From Thermoanaerobacter kivui (GTDB lineage: Bacteria; Bacillota; Thermoanaerobacteria; Thermoanaerobacterales; Thermoanaerobacteraceae), in contig NZ_CP009170.1 of the NCBI RefSeq assembly GCF_000763575.1, forward strand, positions 769,501 to 833,500: a DNA stretch of 64,000 bases. Direction: 5' to 3'. The translations under genes and the position numbers were made by a program. The notes under the pieces are model-generated. The model saw only the letters and a program-made list of their open reading frames with translations, did no database searches and was not told where the DNA came from. Numbering within the stretch: position 1 is the stretch's first letter; every line of letters begins with the position of its first letter. This document shows, in pieces, positions 7,813 to 60,872 of the stretch.

Positions 7813-7826
7813 GTTTGTCAACAAAC
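7813..7826. repeat. palindrome GTTTGTCAACAAAC (repeat-family end motif)
   Basis: A perfect 14-bp palindrome next to a terminator stem. The same end motif closes the three long-hairpin elements at 19937-20201, 54588-54749 and 60655-60845, again touching terminators. Here only one end motif is present, so this may be a solo or decayed copy. Confidence 0.7.
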
Positions 7827-7828
7827 TA

Positions 7829-8326: not shown

Positions 8327-8368
8327 AGGCCACCCTAGTGTTAAAATTAACAAGAGGGTGGTCTTTTA
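8327..8368 (+). terminator. terminator after tRNA-Pro, overlapping the convergent pseudogene end
   Basis: GGCCACCCT (8328-8336) pairs with AGGGTGGTC (8355-8363), followed by TTTT on the plus strand. It ends the tRNA transcript and may also limit the minus-strand fragment that stops at 8366. The DNA between the tRNA and this hairpin holds no gene. Confidence 0.75.
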
Positions 8369-8986
8369 TAATTTCTTTATCACAAGTATGCCATTTTCCT
8401 TAGAAATTTCTAAATCATAAAACTTCCTGCAGGATTCTATAGTTGTTTTTATAAGTTTTTCCTGACCAGTTATTTCGAGTAAATGTATGGATTTAGATAA
8501 AGAGTCTTTGTATTCTTCTCTGCCTAGATTGTACTCTGCAATTGCTTTTCTAAAGTATAAAAGCCCCAAGCCACATAAAGTGTTATTTTTTGTACAGGTT
8601 TCTATGCCTAGATTTACATAATGTAAAGATTCTTCATAAAGAGAAAGAATATGATAATTATAAGATATGTTGTAATGAATTTTTATTTTTGTTTCCCATT
8701 CTTCTGGAGATAAATTTTCTAAACAGAATAAAAGCATTTTAAGGCTTTTTTCTACATTTTCTGTTTTTTTAATAATCAAAGCCATGTTCATTAAGATTCT
8801 AATTTCCATATCATTGTAAACAAAATCGGCATAATTAGAAAGAGAAAAATCAGGGATAGTGATTTTCATTGCCTCTTGGAGTTTTTCCATGGCTTTTCCA
8901 TAATCTTCATTGATTGTTTTTTCAAAAACAGAAATTATATTGGTGAAGATTTTGCAGGATAGATTTATAATAAGGGGTTTGGGCAT
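8366..8986 (-). pseudogene. N-terminally truncated XRE-TPR regulator (paralogue of 13092-14057)
   Basis: Its 206 residues match the C-terminal two thirds of the intact XRE-TPR regulator at 13092-14057 almost end to end. Shared blocks include KVTIPDFS/KITIPDFS, NLGREEYKDSL, EITGQ-KL and the ENGxxVI ending. The helix-turn-helix domain and first repeats are missing, and the first ~20 residues do not match the paralogue. The break coincides with a change of sequence near 8987, where an unrelated plus-strand reading frame begins. It is therefore a remnant made by deletion or recombination. A peptide-binding TPR domain could in principle still fold, but there is no clear ribosome site. Confidence 0.75.
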
Positions 8987-12861: not shown

Positions 12862-13091
12862 AAACTTAAAAAATTATTTGGATACCATAGTACTGGCTGT
12901 AACTTGAATTTGAGCATTTATGTTTTAAAGACATTTAAACGCGTATATATTCTTGAAAGATTTTATTGATTTTTTAATTTTGCGTGATACAAAACATTGT
13001 GTTTTCCATTAGAATCTAAAAATGCTCTTACAGGTTTAGAAATAATAAAAAGCTAGGGTATTTTTACAGTCTGTATAGATTTTGTAGAAAT

Positions 13092-14057
13092 TCACAAGTT
13101 CCTTATCACAATCATACCATTTTCTTTAGTGATTTCTAAGTTATAAAGTTTTTTACAGGACTCTATGGTTATTTTTTTAAGCTTATCCTGACCAGTTATT
13201 TCAAATATATTTATAGATTTAATGAGGGAATCTTTGTATTCCTCTCTGCCAAGGTTAAGCTCTGCAATTGCTTTTCTGAAGAGTAAAAGTCCTAAGCCGC
13301 TTAAGGTATTATTTTTTACACAGGTTTCTATGCCTAGATTAGCGTAATAGAGTGACTTTTCGTAAATGGATAAAAGGTGATAAGTATATGAGATATTATA
13401 GTAAACTTTTATTTTAATTTCCCATTCTTCCTCTGACAACGCCTCAAGGCAGAAGAGCAACATTTCAAGGCCTTGCTGGCGTTTTTCCGTTTTTTCAAAT
13501 ACAAATATTAAAGCTATGTTCATTAAAATTCTGACTTCTAAGTCACTGTACACAAAATTAGCGTAGTTGTAAACAGAAAAATCAGGTATAGTTACTTTCA
13601 TTGCTTTTTCAAGCTTTATTAAAGATGTGTGTGGGTCTTTATTTACTGCTTTTTCATAAATAGATTCGGAAAGAAGCAGAAGTTGGCGCAAAAATTTTGC
13701 ATAATAAGGGCTCATTTTTTCTTCTTCAAGAGTTTTTAATTTTTCCATGTCTTCTTTTAACCCTTCAAAGTCTCCACTTTCAAGTTTATTCTCAATAGAG
13801 TTTTTTATTTTACAAAAAGTAGAGTAATCTTTAACTCTGTATTTGAGCAACACTTCATTTAGGTCTTTTTTGTAAAAATGAGAAAGCAAATCCAGGGTTT
13901 CCTGTTTGGGCATTACCTTGCCATTTTCAATTTTTCTTAAAGTATCTATGTTTATAAATGCTTGTTCAGCAACTTCGTTTTGAGTAAGCCTCAAGGACTT
14001 TCTTATGTTTTTCAATTCTTTCCCAAAGCCTTCCAGGTCGTAATAGAATCCATCCAT
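13092..14057 (-). CDS. XRE-TPR transcriptional regulator (RNPP-like)
   Basis: A 321-residue regulator. Residues ~9-65 form an XRE helix-turn-helix (ELKNIRKSLRLTQNEVAEQA, then FINIDTLRKIENGKVMP). The remaining ~250 residues are helical repeats of the TPR type with blocks such as NISYTYHLLSIYEKSLYYAN and LGLLLFRKAIAELNLGREEY. The layout and size match the RNPP group (PlcR, NprR, PrgX), which sense exported and re-imported peptides; membership is inferred from architecture. It is transcribed away from the secreted-protein pair at 14153, and the shared intergenic region holds a GATTCAAATCGG palindrome. A truncated paralogue lies at 8366-8986. Confidence 0.75.
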   Translation of the reverse strand: MDGFYYDLEGFGKELKNIRKSLRLTQNEVAEQAFINIDTLRKIENGKVMPKQETLDLLSHFYKKDLNEVLLKYRVKDYSTFCKIKNSIENKLESGDFEGLKEDMEKLKTLEEEKMSPYYAKFLRQLLLLSESIYEKAVNKDPHTSLIKLEKAMKVTIPDFSVYNYANFVYSDLEVRILMNIALIFVFEKTEKRQQGLEMLLFCLEALSEEEWEIKIKVYYNISYTYHLLSIYEKSLYYANLGIETCVKNNTLSGLGLLLFRKAIAELNLGREEYKDSLIKSINIFEITGQDKLKKITIESCKKLYNLEITKENGMIVIRNL

Positions 14058-19842: not shown

Positions 19843-19914
19843 GTTACCACCTCGCATTATTACTACATGTGGTATATTTAAATTAATTCTATCACAAAAT
19901 ATACAATAATAAAA

Positions 19915-19936
19915 GAGAGTACACGAAATACTCTCT
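19915..19936 (-). terminator. outward-facing terminator, left of the long-hairpin element
   Basis: GAGAGTA pairs with TACTCTC around a 7-base loop; read on the minus strand it is followed by TTTT. It nearly copies the hairpin on the other side of the element at 20202-20224 (same stem, loop differing by one base). Confidence 0.7.
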
Positions 19937-20201
19937 CAGTTTGTTGACAAAGTTAAAAAATATTCAAAGGAGATATTTTGCATCGTCGCTCCGATGTTCC
20001 AAAGCGACAAAACTAAAGCTCGACCTTCGGGCTCCGGCAGGGTACCGGGCACAATCGGCCTCCTTGCCTCAGGTGCCCGCCTTCGCCATCCATGGCTTCG
20101 GCCCTGCCTCCACCCTCGGTCTTGCTAAGTTTTGTTACCGCTTTGTAACAAGTCGCTCCTTATGCAAAATATCTCCTTTACGAAAGTTTGTCTACAGTCT
20201 G
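19937..20201 (+). repeat. long-hairpin repeat element, copy B
   Basis: Ends are CAGTTTGTTGACAAA (19937-19951) and TTTGTCTACAGTCTG (20187-20201), imperfect inverted repeats. Next inside, AAAGGAGATATTTTGCAT (about 19967-19984) pairs with ATGCAAAATATCTCCTTT (about 20163-20180), so the whole unit can fold into one long stem. The centre (about 20030-20130) is strikingly GC-rich for this genome and has no coding character. It shares its ends, but not its core, with copies C and D. Confidence 0.75.
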
Positions 20202-20227
20202 AGAGAGTATACGAAATACTCTCTTTT
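20202..20227 (+). terminator. outward-facing terminator, right of copy B
   Basis: AGAGAGTA pairs with TACTCTCT around TACGAAA, followed on the plus strand by TTTT. Confidence 0.7.
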
Positions 20228-54579: not shown

Positions 54580-54587
54580 AATCGCCT

Positions 54588-54749
54588 CAGTTTGTTGACA
54601 AACTTTTTACGTATAAATTAAAGTCTCCAGCTTTATATTAAAGTGCAGGCTCACGTATCTAAGTCGTGTCTATGGCTCGTTTTGGGCAGTAGGATGCACT
54701 TTATGCATAAAAGCGGAGACTTTTTAAAAGTGACTTTGTCTAAAGTCTA
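54588..54749 (+). repeat. long-hairpin repeat element, copy C
   Basis: Ends CAGTTTGTTGACAAA (54588-54602) and TTTGTCTAAAGTCTA (54735-54749). Inside, AAAGTCTCCAGCTTT and AAAGTGCA pair with TGCACTTT and AAAGCGGAGACTTT, making a long stem. The part GTGCAGGCTCACGTATCTAA followed by GTCGTG (about 54641-54668) occurs almost unchanged, inverted, in copy D. No coding sense. Confidence 0.75.
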
Positions 54750-54770
54750 AGGCGTTTTCGCGCCTTTTAT
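54749..54770. terminator. terminator of iadA, touching copy C
   Basis: AAGGCG pairs with CGCCTT around TTTTCG, followed by TTATT on the plus strand. A lone CGCCT at 54584-54588, left of the element, could pair with AGGCG here across the whole element. Confidence 0.7.
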
Positions 54771-55942
54771 TCTTCAAACATGCCTTTTTTAACTGATTTC
54801 TTCTCATTTATCATGAATCTTCCCTTTGCAATGACAGAGTGAATGTTTAAGTTATTGTCTAATATTACAATGTCTCCGTCTGACTTTTCTTTGATACAGC
54901 CTTTATTAGGATACAGATTTAATACTTTTGCTACATTTTCTGTTATTATCTTAATTGCTTGTTCTATTGGCAGTATCCCTTCCACTATAACTTCTCTTAA
55001 ATCGCGGTATAGAGTTTGTGCACTTCCCACCATAACCTTTACCAATCGCTTATTTTCATCAAATACAGGAATGCTACCATTGCTATCAGAGCTCATAGTG
55101 ACTTTTTCTATAGGTAATTTGTTTTCTACGATTTTTTTAATTGCTTCTTTTGGTGTTAAAGCAGTTTTTGTGTGGGCGTCCGGCTTTATATCAGAAGTAA
55201 GGTCAATTACGCCACCCATTTCTATAAATTTCAATCCTTGCTCAAAAAGGTGTCCTATTCTGTTTATATGAGTCGGGACAAATTGCGTAATAGGTATTTC
55301 TGTATTTTTTACTATCTCAAAAATAGGAGTGAGCCCTCTTATCCCATCTCCAACGTGGAGGTGAACTACTCCGGGCTTATTGCCTAAAAGTCCACCGACT
55401 CTCGCTTCTGCAGCAAGTTTTGTCAAGTCTTCAATAGTTGGTTGTGCAGACCTGTGGTCTGAAATGGCTATTTCGCCAGTTCCTATAACTTTATCTATTA
55501 AAACTAAATCAGATCTTACACTTCCTGTTAAAGTTCGAGTGGGAAGTTCATAAGCTCCTGTGTAAATGTATGTAGTTATGCCTTCTTGTTCTAATGCTCG
55601 CGCTTTTGCAAGAAGTGAGGCCATGCTTCGGGTTATTCCATCAGCTCCTAAAAGGCCTACGACTGTGGTAATGCCGCCTTTTATAATGTCAGAAAGCTTT
55701 ATTTCTGGAGTTCTTGTGATAGGTCCTCCTTCTCCGCCGCCTCCTGCTATGTGTACATGTTGGTCAATAAAACCGGGAACTACAATGAAGCCTTTTAAAT
55801 CTACTGTTTCTACATTGCCAAACTCATTGGTGGCTTTTATTTCATCTGCGATTTTTAGTATTTTACCGTTGCATATCAGTATGTCTTTTCTTCCCAAAGG
55901 TTCAGGAGAGTACACTTCTCCACCTTTTAAAAGCAAAAACAT
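54767..55942 (-). CDS. iadA: isoaspartyl dipeptidase
   Basis: 391-residue amidohydrolase that cleaves beta-aspartyl dipeptides from damaged proteins. Metal ligands are visible: GFIDQHVHIAGGGGEGG (about 57-73), VHLHVGD and PTHINR, and the late Asp in SSDSNGS. Length and motifs fit IadA well. It is transcribed divergently from the MocR regulator, which might control it. Confidence 0.92.
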   Translation of the reverse strand: MFLLLKGGEVYSPEPLGRKDILICNGKILKIADEIKATNEFGNVETVDLKGFIVVPGFIDQHVHIAGGGGEGGPITRTPEIKLSDIIKGGITTVVGLLGADGITRSMASLLAKARALEQEGITTYIYTGAYELPTRTLTGSVRSDLVLIDKVIGTGEIAISDHRSAQPTIEDLTKLAAEARVGGLLGNKPGVVHLHVGDGIRGLTPIFEIVKNTEIPITQFVPTHINRIGHLFEQGLKFIEMGGVIDLTSDIKPDAHTKTALTPKEAIKKIVENKLPIEKVTMSSDSNGSIPVFDENKRLVKVMVGSAQTLYRDLREVIVEGILPIEQAIKIITENVAKVLNLYPNKGCIKEKSDGDIVILDNNLNIHSVIAKGRFMINEKKSVKKGMFEE

Positions 55943-56036
55943 AGTTTCACCTCGCCAAATTTCTTTTTAATATTTTTTTACCTACATCCATTATAATACA
56001 TTTGATATTTAAAAAGAATTTTTGTTGTGATAATGG

Positions 56037-56060
56037 TATAATAATTGTAACGATACAATT
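56037..56060 (+). promoter_or_regulatory. -10 box and operator of the MocR gene
   Basis: TATAAT (56037-56042) is followed at once by AATTGTA-ACGA-TACAATT (56043-56060), a perfect 7-4-7 palindrome. Its position over the transcript start suggests autorepression by the GntR-type domain. Confidence 0.65.
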
Positions 56061-56075
56061 CTGTGGGGTGTTAGT

Positions 56076-57512
56076 ATGAATAAAATAACGATTGATAAGA
56101 ATAAAAATATACCTTTGTACATGCAAGTCTACAGCCAAATAAAGAGGTTTATAGAAAACGGCAGTCTCCCAGGAGGTTACAAACTTCCCACAATAAGAAG
56201 TCTTGCAAAAGAGCTGGGTGTAAATAACATTACCATAATAAATGCTTATAAACTTTTGGAGCAAAACGGTTATGTATATACCAAAGTAGGAAGTGGAACT
56301 TATGTTTGTGAAGATATAAAAAAAGACGATGAAATGGAGGAAAACATTAAATCATTGGACCAAGGGCAGTTTGCCCTGCGAAAAGGTATGATAAATTTTG
56401 CTTCTTCTTCTCCTAACCCTGAACTTTTTCCTGTAGAAGATTTTAGGGAATTAATTAACAGGGTATTGAAAAGAGATGGAGGATATGCTTTTGAGTATCA
56501 AGACACAAAAGGATATAAACCTCTTAGGGAATCTGTCAAAGAATTTGTAAAAAAAGACCAAATATTTACCTCTATAGACAATATACAAATAATATCGGGA
56601 GGACAGCAAGGGATAGATGTTGTATCCAAAGCTCTTATAAATTTCGAGGATGCCATAATTGCTGAAAGACCGACTTATTCGTGGGCTTTGGCTTCTTTTG
56701 AGTCCCGCGGAGCAGAAATATTAGAAGTGGAATTGCAAAAGGATGGGATAGACTTGGAAGAATTAGAAGATAAACTAAAAAAATTTAAGCCCAGATTTAT
56801 ATATGTAATACCCAATTTTCATAATCCTACAGGGATTACCTACAGTGAAGAAAAAAAGAAAAAATTGATTAGTTTAGCAGAAAAGTACGAAACTTATGTG
56901 GTGGAAGATGACTTTGCCAGCGAACTTAGCTTTACAAAAGAAAAAACATTGCCTCTTAAGGCATATGACAAACACGACAGAGTGATTTACATAAAAAGTT
57001 TTTCTAAAGTATATATGCCAGGGTTGAGACTTGGTTTTATAATTGCTCCTGAGAGATTTGTGAGTTCTTTTTTAAAAGCTAAATACGTATCAGACCTTTC
57101 TACATCGGGACTCATGCAGAGGGCTTTTGATTTGTATTTAAGAGAAAATATCTGGGTGAAACATGTTGAAAGTATAAAACAGGTAATGTATGAAAGATTT
57201 AGTGAGATGGGAAGGCGTCTTGAAAACCTTAAAAACTACACAGAGTTTGAACATCCCAAAGGAGGGTTTTATTTTTGGTTAAAGCTTAAAAATAATCTTT
57301 CTGCTAAAAGTTTGTACTCAAAGTGTTTGGACAGAAATTTAATGATAGTACCTGGCGATATATTCTTTATGGGTAAAAAAGAAAATAGCTTTGTAAGGCT
57401 GAGTTTTGCTTCTTGTGAGGTGAAGGAAATAGCAAAGGGCATTGAAATATTAGGAGAAATTTTAAAAGGATATTTTGATGAAAACAACAATGTGTATGTG
57501 CCAATAATTTAA
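56076..57512 (+). CDS. MocR-type GntR/aminotransferase regulator
   Basis: 478 residues: a GntR winged helix (about 10-78, IPLYMQVYSQIKRFIENGSL) fused to a fold-type-I aminotransferase domain with PLP lysine Lys311 (IKSFSKVYMPGLRLG). Family members sense PLP and amino compounds, for example PdxR, GabR or DdlR types; the target here is not known. The divergent iadA and its own palindrome are the nearest candidates. The ribosome site is weak (GGGGTG). Confidence 0.9.
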   Translation: MNKITIDKNKNIPLYMQVYSQIKRFIENGSLPGGYKLPTIRSLAKELGVNNITIINAYKLLEQNGYVYTKVGSGTYVCEDIKKDDEMEENIKSLDQGQFALRKGMINFASSSPNPELFPVEDFRELINRVLKRDGGYAFEYQDTKGYKPLRESVKEFVKKDQIFTSIDNIQIISGGQQGIDVVSKALINFEDAIIAERPTYSWALASFESRGAEILEVELQKDGIDLEELEDKLKKFKPRFIYVIPNFHNPTGITYSEEKKKKLISLAEKYETYVVEDDFASELSFTKEKTLPLKAYDKHDRVIYIKSFSKVYMPGLRLGFIIAPERFVSSFLKAKYVSDLSTSGLMQRAFDLYLRENIWVKHVESIKQVMYERFSEMGRRLENLKNYTEFEHPKGGFYFWLKLKNNLSAKSLYSKCLDRNLMIVPGDIFFMGKKENSFVRLSFASCEVKEIAKGIEILGEILKGYFDENNNVYVPII

Positions 57513-57513
57513 G

Positions 57514-57538
57514 AAAGGCCGCATGGCCGGCCTTTTTT
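57514..57538. terminator. terminator between the MocR gene and bactofilin
   Basis: AAAGGCCG pairs with CGGCCTTT around a 6-base loop, followed by TTT; bidirectional. Confidence 0.85.
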
Positions 57539-57541
57539 AAA

Positions 57542-57940
57542 TTATTTTTTTTGTTCGTCATTTTTAACAGGATTGCTTTGAGGAGATTTTAACATTTTAC
57601 ATTTGCCGTCAAAAATGGCTCCATCTTCTATTATCAAGTTTTGAACTTCTATATCGCCGGAAAGTTTTCCTGTAGAAGTAAGTTGCAATTGTCCTTTTGC
57701 AAATATGTTTCCTTTTACTTCACCGGAAAGAATGATGTTATCTGTAGTTATATTGGCTTCTACTTTAGCTGATTCGCCTATTATGATGTTGCCTTTTGTC
57801 TCTATTTGGCCAGTGAAATTACCATCTATTCTGAGGGTACCTTGTGATTTAATGGTGCCTTCAAAAGTTGAATTTTTGCCTATGACAGTGTCTATTTTGT
57901 CTGGGTTAACTTCCAAAACTTGCTCTTTCCTTTGAAACAT
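57542..57940 (-). CDS. bactofilin (polymer-forming cytoskeletal protein)
   Basis: About 132 residues. The beta-helical bactofilin core (about 15-115) shows the repeat pattern TFEGTIKSQGTLRIDGNFTG and GEVKGNIFAKGQL. Bactofilins form filaments at the membrane and often work with M23 peptidases on cell shape. The ATG at 57940 is used (GGGGAATTGAT upstream) and touches the stop of the M23 gene, a classic bactofilin/M23 pairing. Confidence 0.9.
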   Translation of the reverse strand: MFQRKEQVLEVNPDKIDTVIGKNSTFEGTIKSQGTLRIDGNFTGQIETKGNIIIGESAKVEANITTDNIILSGEVKGNIFAKGQLQLTSTGKLSGDIEVQNLIIEDGAIFDGKCKMLKSPQSNPVKNDEQKK

Positions 57941-57941
57941 A

Positions 57942-58916
57942 TCAATTCCCCTTTGCAAGATAGTTCATTGGATTTACAGGGTTGCCATTTACCCTAACTT
58001 CAAAGTGAACATGGGGCCCAGTGCTTCTTCCAGTATTTCCTGATTTTGCAATTATATCTCCTCTTTTCACAGTTTGGCCCACTTTGACGATGATTTGTGA
58101 ATTGTGTCCATAAACCGACTGAATACCATATCCGTGGTCTATTATTACAGCTTTTCCGTATCCTGAAAGCCAACCTGCGTATGTAACTACTCCTTTTCCT
58201 GCAGCTCTTACTGGAGTACCAACTGAGACTGCTATATCAATTCCTGGATGAAATTCAGTGCCATATCCGTAAGGTGACTTTCTCGTTCCAAAAGGAGAAG
58301 TGATGGTACCCTGTACTGGATAGGTACTGGGTATTGATTCGAGGTAATCCAGTCTTGCTGCTACCTTTGAAATGAGGTCTTTTAAATCTTGTGTTTTTTG
58401 ATCTATTTCTGAAGTGAGCTGTGCTGTTGTTTCATTGTCATAGGTAATGCTGCCTTCATTTCTGGCATCTCTTGAAAGGCCACCACGGCTGGTAGTTGGA
58501 GTTGACAATCCTACCATTCGCCTTACCTTTTCTTCAAGTTCATTTAAACTCTTAATTTTTTCGTTGACTAATTGTGCGTTTTTATCGAGCGTGGCAATTT
58601 TTTTGTCTTGTTCTTCTTTAATTGACGTCAATTGTGCAATTTTTTCATCTTTTTCTCTGATTACAGTATATAAATAAGAGGTGGTTTTTCCAAAATACAC
58701 TAAAGAAAGTGTAGCAGCCAGAAATATTGAAAAAGTTATTATCGCCGTCGTTTTTATAAGGGGAATAGAAACCCGTGTGAGCACCTTCCCAACGGCAACC
58801 TTAAGCGGCGCCGTCGTTTTTATAAGGGGAATAGAAACCCTAAAGCTTTTGATTTGGTGGTTTGAGTCGGGAATTATCATTATGTTTAAATATTTCTCTT
58901 TTTTCTTTTTTTTCAT
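57942..58916 (-). CDS. membrane-anchored M23 metallopeptidase with in-frame repeat-spacer insert
   Basis: 324 residues: cytoplasmic start, a membrane segment (about 58-76, AIITFSIFLAATLSLVYFG), coiled coil (about 80-185) and a LytM-type M23 domain (about 200-320) with zinc ligands in HPGID and HVHFE. It should cut peptidoglycan cross-links near a bactofilin scaffold. Odd feature: peptide RVSIPLIKTTA occurs twice (26-36 and 48-58), separated by PLKVAVGKVLT. In DNA this is a perfect 32-bp repeat around a GC-rich 34-bp spacer. The 66-bp unit keeps the frame. The catalytic domain looks intact. Confidence 0.9.
   Translation of the reverse strand: MKKKKKEKYLNIMIIPDSNHQIKSFRVSIPLIKTTAPLKVAVGKVLTRVSIPLIKTTAIITFSIFLAATLSLVYFGKTTSYLYTVIREKDEKIAQLTSIKEEQDKKIATLDKNAQLVNEKIKSLNELEEKVRRMVGLSTPTTSRGGLSRDARNEGSITYDNETTAQLTSEIDQKTQDLKDLISKVAARLDYLESIPSTYPVQGTITSPFGTRKSPYGYGTEFHPGIDIAVSVGTPVRAAGKGVVTYAGWLSGYGKAVIIDHGYGIQSVYGHNSQIIVKVGQTVKRGDIIAKSGNTGRSTGPHVHFEVRVNGNPVNPMNYLAKGN
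58743..58840. CRISPR. CRISPR-like repeat-spacer-repeat inside the M23 gene
   Basis: Two identical 32-bp copies, 58743-58774 and 58809-58840, starting CGCCGTCGTTTTTATAAGG and ending GGGGAATAGAAACCC, flank a 34-bp spacer (58775-58808) of about 60 percent GC in a gene of about 40 percent. The copy ends in GAAAC and contains GTTTTTA, as Thermoanaerobacter-type CRISPR repeats do. No second spacer copy exists, so it is not a simple tandem duplication. No cas genes are nearby. Shape is certain; CRISPR origin is inference. Confidence 0.5.
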
Positions 58917-59083
58917 TTAATACCCCCACCCTTAAAAAAATGGACAACTATATCTATTCTATACAAAGGTATGAAAATCCTTCTTGAAACTTAAATTTTA
59001 AATTTTAACAATTTTAAAACAAATCATTTTGTTTATCGTTTGTGATATAATCGAAATATAATCTGGTGAAATCGAGGTGGAAT

Positions 59084-59425
59084 ATGAAAAAGGGAATTAT
59101 TTTAGGAATTGTTATGGGAATAATAGCTATAGTGTCAAATATTATTGTAAATGGTTTTTACACCTCTTTTGTATATTACAGCAACTATCTTTTTTTGGCA
59201 GGTACAGCAGTGGGATTATTAGGAGGAATATTGTACATATCTTATTGGATAAATGACTTGAAGACAGTTAAAAAAATTTACTACCACGAAGAATTGCCTG
59301 AAAAAAGAAAAGAAATAGAATTTATGGAAAGATGGGGAAGTTATCTTGTCATTGCTATGATTGTGATGTGGCTTTTGTCTTTAGTTTTTGTATTAGTAGG
59401 AGAGATGTTTACAAGTATAAAATAA
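59084..59425 (+). CDS. small membrane protein, DUF3899-like
   Basis: About 113 residues with three membrane segments (roughly 3-22, 32-54 and 88-108) and a charged loop HEELPEKRKEIEFMERWG between the last two. Similar small proteins of the DUF3899 type are common in Firmicutes, with unknown function. ATG at 59084 after GAGGTGG. Confidence 0.6.
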   Translation: MKKGIILGIVMGIIAIVSNIIVNGFYTSFVYYSNYLFLAGTAVGLLGGILYISYWINDLKTVKKIYYHEELPEKRKEIEFMERWGSYLVIAMIVMWLLSLVFVLVGEMFTSIK

Positions 59426-59472
59426 CTGCTGTGGAGAATACTATTTGGTAAAGGGAATCAGGAGGTGTTGTG

Positions 59473-59724
59473 ATGGGGAAAAAGGTAGCAGTGGAAAGCC
59501 AGCTTTCTAATATTAAAAATTATTTAAAAGAAAGAGGATATGAAGTTGTGGAATTGGAGGAATACCTTTTGAGCAAAAACAATTTTAATGCCTATGATGC
59601 TGTTGTCATTACAGGCCAAAGTAGAAATATGTTGGGGATGGATGATATTTCAACGAAAGCTGCTGTGATAGATGCGACAGGTATGACACCTTTTGATGTA
59701 GAGGAAAGGATAAAAAGATTGTAG
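59473..59724 (+). CDS. UPF0180 (YkuS-like) protein
   Basis: 83 residues matching the UPF0180 family: VAVESQLSNIKNYLKERGYE at the start and DAVVITGQSRNMLGMDDIST in the middle. Function unknown. The ATG at 59473 follows AGGAGG by 7 bases and is preferred over the GTG at 59470. Confidence 0.8.
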   Translation: MGKKVAVESQLSNIKNYLKERGYEVVELEEYLLSKNNFNAYDAVVITGQSRNMLGMDDISTKAAVIDATGMTPFDVEERIKRL

Positions 59725-59735
59725 GTGGTGGTTTT

Positions 59736-59939
59736 GTGGTAAGTGTTGAACAATTGAGGACAGTTGGAAAGAATTGCAAGGACTTTGAATTAGACCAGTC
59801 CCTTTATGCTAATAATTTTTCTATGTCTATTGCTAATGGAGATAGAAGCTGTGAAATATGTCGCCATTGGGATGTCAATAGAAAAATTTGCAGAATAGGT
59901 GTTTTTGATGATGTGTTATCAAGTCTTGACCAAAGTTAA
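59736..59939 (+). CDS. small protein with CxxC...C motif, unknown
   Basis: 67 residues starting at a GTG after AGGTGG. The motif CEICRHW...NRKIC (about 39-52) could bind a metal ion. It follows the UPF0180 gene by 11 bases and is probably co-transcribed. I do not recognise the family. Confidence 0.55.
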   Translation: MVSVEQLRTVGKNCKDFELDQSLYANNFSMSIANGDRSCEICRHWDVNRKICRIGVFDDVLSSLDQS

Positions 59940-60001
59940 AAATTTAAGGTTTGGAAGGATTTTTTAAAACTTTGTTAAATATTATAATATATACAAGTAA
60001 A

Positions 60002-60144
60002 ATGAAATTTTTTGTGTGTGGTAAATACATTAAACCTCTCAATGAGGACAGAGAGCTTTATATTGACATGAAGATATGTTTTGATATTATAAAAAAGGCG
60101 AGTTGTTAGATGCGCTTGAAAAAGAGGGAATACTGTTAGATTAA
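60002..60144 (+). pseudogene. small frameshifted gene (A6 tract)
   Basis: From the ATG at 60002 the frame encodes MKFFVCGKYIKPLNEDRELY onward and stops at 60109. At the AAAAAA tract (60091-60096) the other frame continues protein-like as GELLDALEKEGILLD up to 60144. One more A would give a 48-residue protein. It may be a pseudogene, a read error or a slippage-decoded gene. Family unknown. Confidence 0.45.
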
Positions 60145-60155
60145 AAGGTGATTTT

Positions 60156-60632
60156 GTGAATAGAGTATTGCAGTATTTCAAGTCTTTGACTGCTGGCATT
60201 TATGATAGGGATTATGAATTTTTAAAGAAATTTTTAACCAAAAGAGAGTTAGAGTATTTTAATAGGCTTCCTGTCTATGAAAAAAGGCATTCTTTGGATG
60301 TGTGTTATACTCTCATGGATAAATATAAGGTAAAAGATGAGGAACTTTTAAAAGCTGCCCTTTTTCATGACATAGGCAAAATAAAGGTTAAAATAACCCC
60401 TGATAAAAAAGCAATTGCTGTGTTGATAAAAAAGATACCACCTTTGGCAAGATATCTTGAAAAGCGTTTGTATTTTTTACAAGTGTATTATAACCATGCA
60501 GAATATAGTGGAGAAATTTGCAAAGAAATTGGATTAAGCGATAAAGTAATATATATTGTCAAGCACCACCACGACAAAAATGTAAAGGATGAAGATGTAA
60601 TAAAACTTCAAAGGGCAGATAAAGAAAATTAA
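60156..60632 (+). CDS. HD-domain phosphohydrolase
   Basis: 158 residues. The HD motif is ALFHDIGKIK (about 68-77), with an earlier His in RHSLDVCYTLM and a later HHHDKN that complete the metal site. Such small HD proteins hydrolyse nucleotides or cyclic nucleotides; the substrate is unknown. GTG start after AAAGGTG. Confidence 0.85.
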   Translation: MNRVLQYFKSLTAGIYDRDYEFLKKFLTKRELEYFNRLPVYEKRHSLDVCYTLMDKYKVKDEELLKAALFHDIGKIKVKITPDKKAIAVLIKKIPPLARYLEKRLYFLQVYYNHAEYSGEICKEIGLSDKVIYIVKHHHDKNVKDEDVIKLQRADKEN

Positions 60633-60633
60633 A

Positions 60634-60654
60634 GATAGAGATTTTTCTCTATCT
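60634..60654 (-). terminator. outward-facing terminator, left of copy D
   Basis: GATAGAG pairs with CTCTATC; on the minus strand it is followed by TTTAATTTT. It lies 2 bases after the HD gene stop. Confidence 0.7.
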
Positions 60655-60845
60655 CAGACTGTAGACAAAGTCCTTTCGCTTCTCTCAGGCTTCTGCTGCG
60701 CACCTCCTCAGGATGACCCATGAAAGAAAGCGAATTCAGAAGCTGCTCAAAACGAGCCTTAGGCACGACTTAGATACGTGAGCCTGCACTTTAATATAAA
60801 GCAAGAGACTTTAAATTACTCACAAAAAGGTTTGTCAACAAACTG
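60655..60845 (-). repeat. long-hairpin repeat element, copy D (inverted)
   Basis: Ends CAGACTGTAGACAAA (60655-60669) and TTTGTCAACAAACTG (60831-60845). Read on the minus strand, 60815-60745 matches 54620-54690 of copy C at about nine of ten bases. The other arm differs (contains CTTTCGCTTCTC and GAAAGAAAGCGA, which can pair). It lies between two outward terminators with the same stem. Confidence 0.75.
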
Positions 60846-60872
60846 AGATAGAGAGGCTTTCTCTATCTTTAA
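60846..60872 (+). terminator. outward-facing terminator, right of copy D
   Basis: AGATAGAG pairs with CTCTATCT, followed by TTAATC on the plus strand. The right side overlaps the end of the convergent amidase gene. Confidence 0.65.

Follow-up and report, generated by a model that had tools for sequence, protein, structure and literature searches.

What kind of element joins the same ends to different cores and comes to lie, repeatedly, beside terminators? The question is raised by three short elements, B, C and D, in a 64,000-nucleotide stretch of the Thermoanaerobacter kivui chromosome (the window; NZ_CP009170.1, positions 769,501 to 833,500), which the original prediction took for a dispersed family whose ends stay constant while the cores vary, either a MITE targeting terminators or a conserved RNA 3' element. 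The most likely answer, judged from sequence, is that B, C and D are MITEs that carry the ends of an IS1182-family insertion sequence (IS) of the same genome and would have been moved by it (Table 1).

Table 1. Positions of the three elements, their flanking hairpins and the solo end in the window; MITE is the most likely assignment
Feature	Position	Strand	Sequence and remarks
Element B, 265-bp type II MITE	19937..20201	+	long foldback arms
B left hairpin copy	19914..19936		AGAGAGTACACGAAATACTCTCT
B right hairpin copy	20202..20224		AGAGAGTATACGAAATACTCTCT
Element C, 162-bp type I MITE	54588..54749	+	ends CAGTTTGTTGACAAA and TAGACTTTAGACAAA
C left hairpin copy, decayed	54580..54587		3' arm aatcgcct alone left, as judged from the empty site AAGAGGCGTGAGACCGCCTCTT of relatives
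C right hairpin copy, terminator-like	54749..54766	+	AAGGCGTTTTCGCGCCTT
Element D, 191-bp type I MITE	60655..60845	-	ends CAGACTGTAGACAAA and CAGTTTGTTGACAAA; orientation opposite to C
D left hairpin copy	60633..60654		AGATAGAGATTTTTCTCTATCT
D right hairpin copy	60846..60868		AGATAGAGAGGCTTTCTCTATCT
Solo element end	7814..7828	-	TAGTTTGTTGACAAA on the - strand, adjoining hairpin aagcggtcttttgaccgctt

B, C and D have imperfect terminal inverted repeats in common (CAGTTTGTTGACAAA / CAGACTGTAGACAAA), and all three adjoin hairpins, as had been noticed for C and D at terminators. The end motif reported in C and D, TTTGTTGACAAA, is indeed present in both (54591-54602 on the + strand and 60831-60842 on the - strand), occurs in B as well (19940-19951, +), and stands alone beside a hairpin at 7814-7825 (-), the solo end already noticed in the first reading. 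The whole genome holds 31 exact matches to this motif versus 1 for a reversed control pattern, so its frequency is far above chance. Adjacent to the 7814 motif, no convincing partner end was found, and its orthologous site was not found in the other nine genomes; it is probably a truncated copy. The stretch of C that recurs inverted in D is real but longer than the roughly 70 bases first estimated, with 90 nt at 88% identity (54600-54689 versus 60743-60832), or 103 nt at 89% when the ends are included. A feature that the first reading had missed is that the same hairpin stands on both sides of B and of D; at C there is a decayed half and a full copy, and base 54749 is assigned twice, as the last of the element and the first of the right hairpin copy. 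Copies such as D (60633-60868) and L213 show that duplicated hairpins often keep their stems and differ in their loops, and these loop differences exceed what simple drift might suggest.

Two further observations in the window concern other sequences. At 58744-58840, two CRISPR-like repeat copies (cgccgtcgtttttataaggggaatagaaaccc) with a short unique stretch between them lie near the start of a peptidase-like gene and resemble a stray mini-array. The segments 8365-8885 and 13091-13617, about 4.7 kb apart, are 77% identical and are probably paralogous genes.

The family is dispersed well beyond the window. A DNA search of the window's own genome gave 33 matches to C and 36 to B, and the possibility raised at the outset, that Thermoanaerobacter genomes might hold no further copies, did not materialise: they hold many. 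Pairing of ends of the form CAGNNTGTNNACAAA yielded 44 candidate pairs, 40 of which were kept for analysis. Elements with these ends fall into at least three core types. Type I elements (about 102-312 bp) comprise C, D and their relatives, type II elements (about 258-333 bp) comprise B and its relatives, and the third type is a 1,566-bp element with a single long ORF. B, C and D are short, non-coding and multicopy, with shared terminal inverted repeats and a target duplication, as is characteristic of MITEs. Two other copies in the genome are 99-100% identical to B, and three of the five copies of the 1,566-bp IS are identical over their full length, so the family has been mobile recently. The GC-rich core of type II also occurs without IS1182-type ends (L108 and L110, near genome positions 1988500 and 1553950), where it carries an inner hairpin GGCACTCAA...TTGAGTGCC; a second foldback family seems to share this core.

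Contrary to the original prediction, which knew no named family with these ends, they match those of the 1,566-bp element, an IS1182-family IS whose five copies all lie outside the window; the transposase with matching ends that the prediction proposed to look for thus exists elsewhere in the genome. The IS has ends CAGACTGTTGACAAA / CAGTTTGTTGACAAA with a single ORF of about 490 aa between them, in keeping with the IS1182 plan of one ORF between terminal inverted repeats in about 1.5-2 kb. Its product scores 496.4 bits against NF033551.1 over residues 7-442, above the curated cut-off of 270, and carries the Pfam domains DDE_Tnp_1_6, DUF772 and DDE_Tnp_1. Like some reported members of the family, it has palindromic targets. 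IS and MITE ends agree at 15/15 bp at one (left) end and 14/15 at the other (that of D), and beyond the outer ~15 bp the two have no interior sequence in common. The MITE cores are not internal deletions of the 1,566-bp IS, so a different IS that shares these ends may have been the founding partner of the MITEs.

The most telling feature of the family is its junctions. Typically, an element abuts a hairpin exactly at its foot, and a second copy of that hairpin stands on the element's far side. In 31 of the 40 paired copies, the overlap between flanks exceeded the 99th percentile obtained with swapped flanks, and the duplications, mostly 19-30 bp, run from foot to foot across the whole stem-loop. 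Stems of at least 8 lie within 3 nt of the right junction in 23/40 copies and of the left junction in 18/40, versus 0/400 control positions. Examples of such duplicated hairpins are AAATAACCTCCGAAGAGGTTATTT at 1857310, AGACTTAGCCGATGGCTAAGTCT at 1998550, and AAAGATAGAGAAAAAATCCTCTATCTTT flanking the IS at 753307; near 2381000, a tandem pair of elements has three copies of one hairpin between and outside them. A terminator-like A- or T-run lies outside a flanking hairpin in 31/40 copies. The pattern has exceptions: by the flank test, nine of the 40 copies show no duplication, among them the IS at 399533, whose flanks suggest about 6 bp at most, and the IS at 2082947, which has a one-sided hairpin. 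Older-looking copies, C among them, retain stems with drift in the loops or in one hairpin, and loops often differ between paired hairpins, which under whole-hairpin duplication requires later drift.

One IS copy separates the palindrome from the terminator. The palindrome occupied by the IS at 2286447, AACTCCATTATGGAGTT, belongs to the coding sequence of a cas10-like ORF (an identity read by eye), and comparison with the uninterrupted relative in genome G007 gives a 19-bp palindrome duplication. A palindrome is thus what the element targets, and terminators probably receive insertions by virtue of being palindromic; the predicted MITE at terminators holds, but not the terminator as its target. 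The IS at this site (L095, 2286447-2288012) is intact, the ORF it interrupts is of a type III CRISPR kind, and the gene is probably inactive in this strain.

Other Thermoanaerobacter genomes preserve the sites before insertion and show them used again. The site orthologous to that of C is empty and has one hairpin in three relatives (G001, G002 and G008), that of D in six (G002, G003, G004, G007, G008 and G009), and that of B in three (G001, G007 and G008). Elsewhere the same sites are occupied by something else: in G006, the C site holds a type II element between two copies of AAGAGGCGTGAGACCGCCTCTT, one of them with a single change; the D site holds a full IS in G005 and another core in G001; and the B site in G009 holds a type II element that is oriented the other way. 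The same hairpins have been hit by independent insertions. All eight IS copies read in G002 show whole-hairpin duplication. That genome also has a 559-aa IS1182-like lineage with other ends (GATTCTAGTG) and apparent short duplications of about 6 bp, so not every IS1182-like element duplicates hairpins. Transposases 50-63% identical come with the same architecture in a Bacilli MAG, an Erysipelotrichaceae MAG, Paenibacillus, Sutcliffiella, Cytobacillus and Enterococcus casseliflavus. Copies in Exiguobacterium and E. faecium have unlike hairpins on their two sides, which could stem from recombination or deletion.

We are highly confident in an account in which B, C and D were most likely moved in trans by the transposase of the genome's IS1182-family IS, and in which joining at the hairpin foot duplicates the whole stem-loop. 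The sequences themselves show the common ends, the IS, the duplicated hairpins, the single hairpins of empty sites and the repeated use of one hairpin; the role of this particular IS in moving the MITEs, the extrusion of the target, the strand chemistry and the gap repair are inferred. A DDE transposase made from the 1,566-bp copies would act on the non-autonomous B, C and D and would recognise a palindrome able to extrude as a hairpin or cruciform, in most cases an intrinsic terminator. On each strand, the 3' end of the transposon would attach to the hairpin's 5' foot; the stagger would then equal the length of the hairpin, and gap repair would leave a complete stem-loop on both sides. The polarity of the junctions fits such joining of 3' end to 5' foot, with the stem-loop duplicated on repair.

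The same element might instead use single-stranded hairpin DNA at the replication fork as its substrate, rather than a double-stranded cruciform. We regard this as a tentative alternative: both routes predict attack at the hairpin foot and duplication of the whole hairpin, but both orientations occur at one hairpin, which in these small numbers indicates no strand bias. It is very improbable that the element replaces or cuts the hairpin in the manner of IS1272, with the flanking pair arising from neighbouring terminators or from recombination between copies. IS1272 and TnSha1 do delete all or part of their target hairpins, and in a few of the present copies the hairpin is one-sided or the two hairpins are unlike, but exact duplications of 19-32 bp, loops included, occur at many sites, and where IS1272 would leave neither hairpin nor duplication, a hairpin stands on both sides of the element and a single one at empty sites, with continuous outer flanks. 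A conserved RNA 3' element, as a stable small RNA or readthrough structure kept at gene 3' ends, is less credible still: B and C have fold z-scores of -15.1 and -4.1, and the check for covariation did find arms of type II changing together, with two-sided changes in 21 of 71 consensus pairs among 19 copies, many of them in subterminal arms, but we judged folding and covariation alike to be explicable by foldback arms, which are expected in MITEs and which palindrome-templated repair can keep symmetric, while the folding of D does not surpass that of shuffles (z -1.2), none of the four Rfam hits in the window at the gathering score lies in B, C or D, and the presence, identity and orientation of the elements differ at orthologous terminators, which in relatives are empty, differently occupied or oppositely oriented.

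Transposition by attack at a hairpin foot also offers a reading of a rearrangement already described in T. kivui. In the laboratory, cells adapted to CO give rise to TnCO-1, a circle of 85,811 bp that carries an IS1182-like transposase; its P1/P2 junction was published as aaaacagggcacttaagtgccctgtt-cagactgttgacaaaatatcggga and ascribed to a degenerate repeat, IRR', and its discoverers called the excision elusive (PMC12056078). The main text of that paper makes no mention of hairpins or palindromes. aaaacagggcacttaagtgccctgtt holds a 24-bp perfect palindrome that is unique in the genome (1935712-1935735), and cagactgttgacaaaatatcggga matches the terminus of the IS at 1841581; in the junction this terminus is flush with the palindrome foot. 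In the window, a position falls 1 nt or less from the foot of a perfect stem of at least 12 at a frequency of only about 1e-4. The IS1182-like element of TnCO-1 very probably corresponds to an IS copy of the present family, that at 1841581, and its end appears to have struck a terminator-like hairpin located about 94 kb from it in the same chromosome. With the P3 half at 1901656 and the P4 half at 1910027 (junction 1901680/1910027), the distance from IS end to palindrome foot minus 8,346 bp (P3-P4) is 85,809 bp, 2 bp off the published circle, a gap that can be explained by the TT ending both junction sides. Published and present-genome coordinates of TnCO-1 differ by a near-constant offset of 1,622-1,624. 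The P3/P4 junction is without such an IS end and is not accounted for by hairpin attack. We think it reasonably probable that a subgroup of IS1182 transposases, found in both thermophilic and mesophilic Bacillota, reads DNA shape and strikes an extruded hairpin at its 5' feet, that its target duplication accordingly varies in length with the hairpin and keeps the terminator twice, and that the same reaction, directed within the chromosome at a terminator some 94 kb distant, starts the CO-dependent megatransposon TnCO-1.

These sites form a natural insertion series in which hairpin structure sets both target choice and duplication length, and they support a pathway drawn by the authors of the IS1272 work. 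They suggest how dozens of intergenic elements can sit in a genome without destroying its terminators, and they offer a direct explanation, open to testing, for one of the junctions of TnCO-1, the circle behind the CO adaptation of T. kivui. A transposase that finds terminators by their shape could also serve genome engineering.

The IS1182 family and its preference for palindromes are already known. We found no earlier description of whole-hairpin duplication, of such MITEs in Thermoanaerobacter, of the cross-species reuse of the same terminators, or of the hairpin reading of the TnCO-1 junction; nor did we find a phage relative of B. Among freely readable papers, only those on IS1272 were found to bear on whole-hairpin duplication by IS1182 elements. 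The duplication lengths of IS1182 elements in ISfinder are very variable, so some hairpin duplications may be on record there.

The closest known elements are compared here with the T. kivui family. ISEfa7-type IS1182 elements of Enterococcus and of Bacillaceae plasmids share 54-63% transposase identity across about 90% and have TGTNGACAAA-type ends. In Sutcliffiella, Cytobacillus and E. casseliflavus they show whole hairpins exactly duplicated, but in some of their copies the two sides carry different hairpins. The 160-169-bp MITEs of ISMac2 in Methanosarcina acetivorans are, like B, C and D, short and assigned to an IS1182-family partner; unlike them, they have direct repeats of at most 4 bp on one reading of the table columns, and the part of that report consulted here describes no hairpin target (PMC3852290). 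The staphylococcal IS1272 and TnSha1 remove all or part of the hairpin they target and make no duplication (PMC5678879, PMC4923244), and Fig. 13 of PMC5678879 draws a hypothetical hairpin-duplication route, pathway b, beside the IS1272 deletion route. These two elements resemble the present IS in their IS1182-family transposase and terminal inverted repeats of about 16 bp, and the present family in hitting hairpins, often terminators, that have no sequence consensus, with one hairpin hit repeatedly and in both orientations. They differ in the fate of the target: IS1272 and TnSha1 delete the hairpin completely or partially, whereas the T. kivui family duplicates it whole, as in pathway b.
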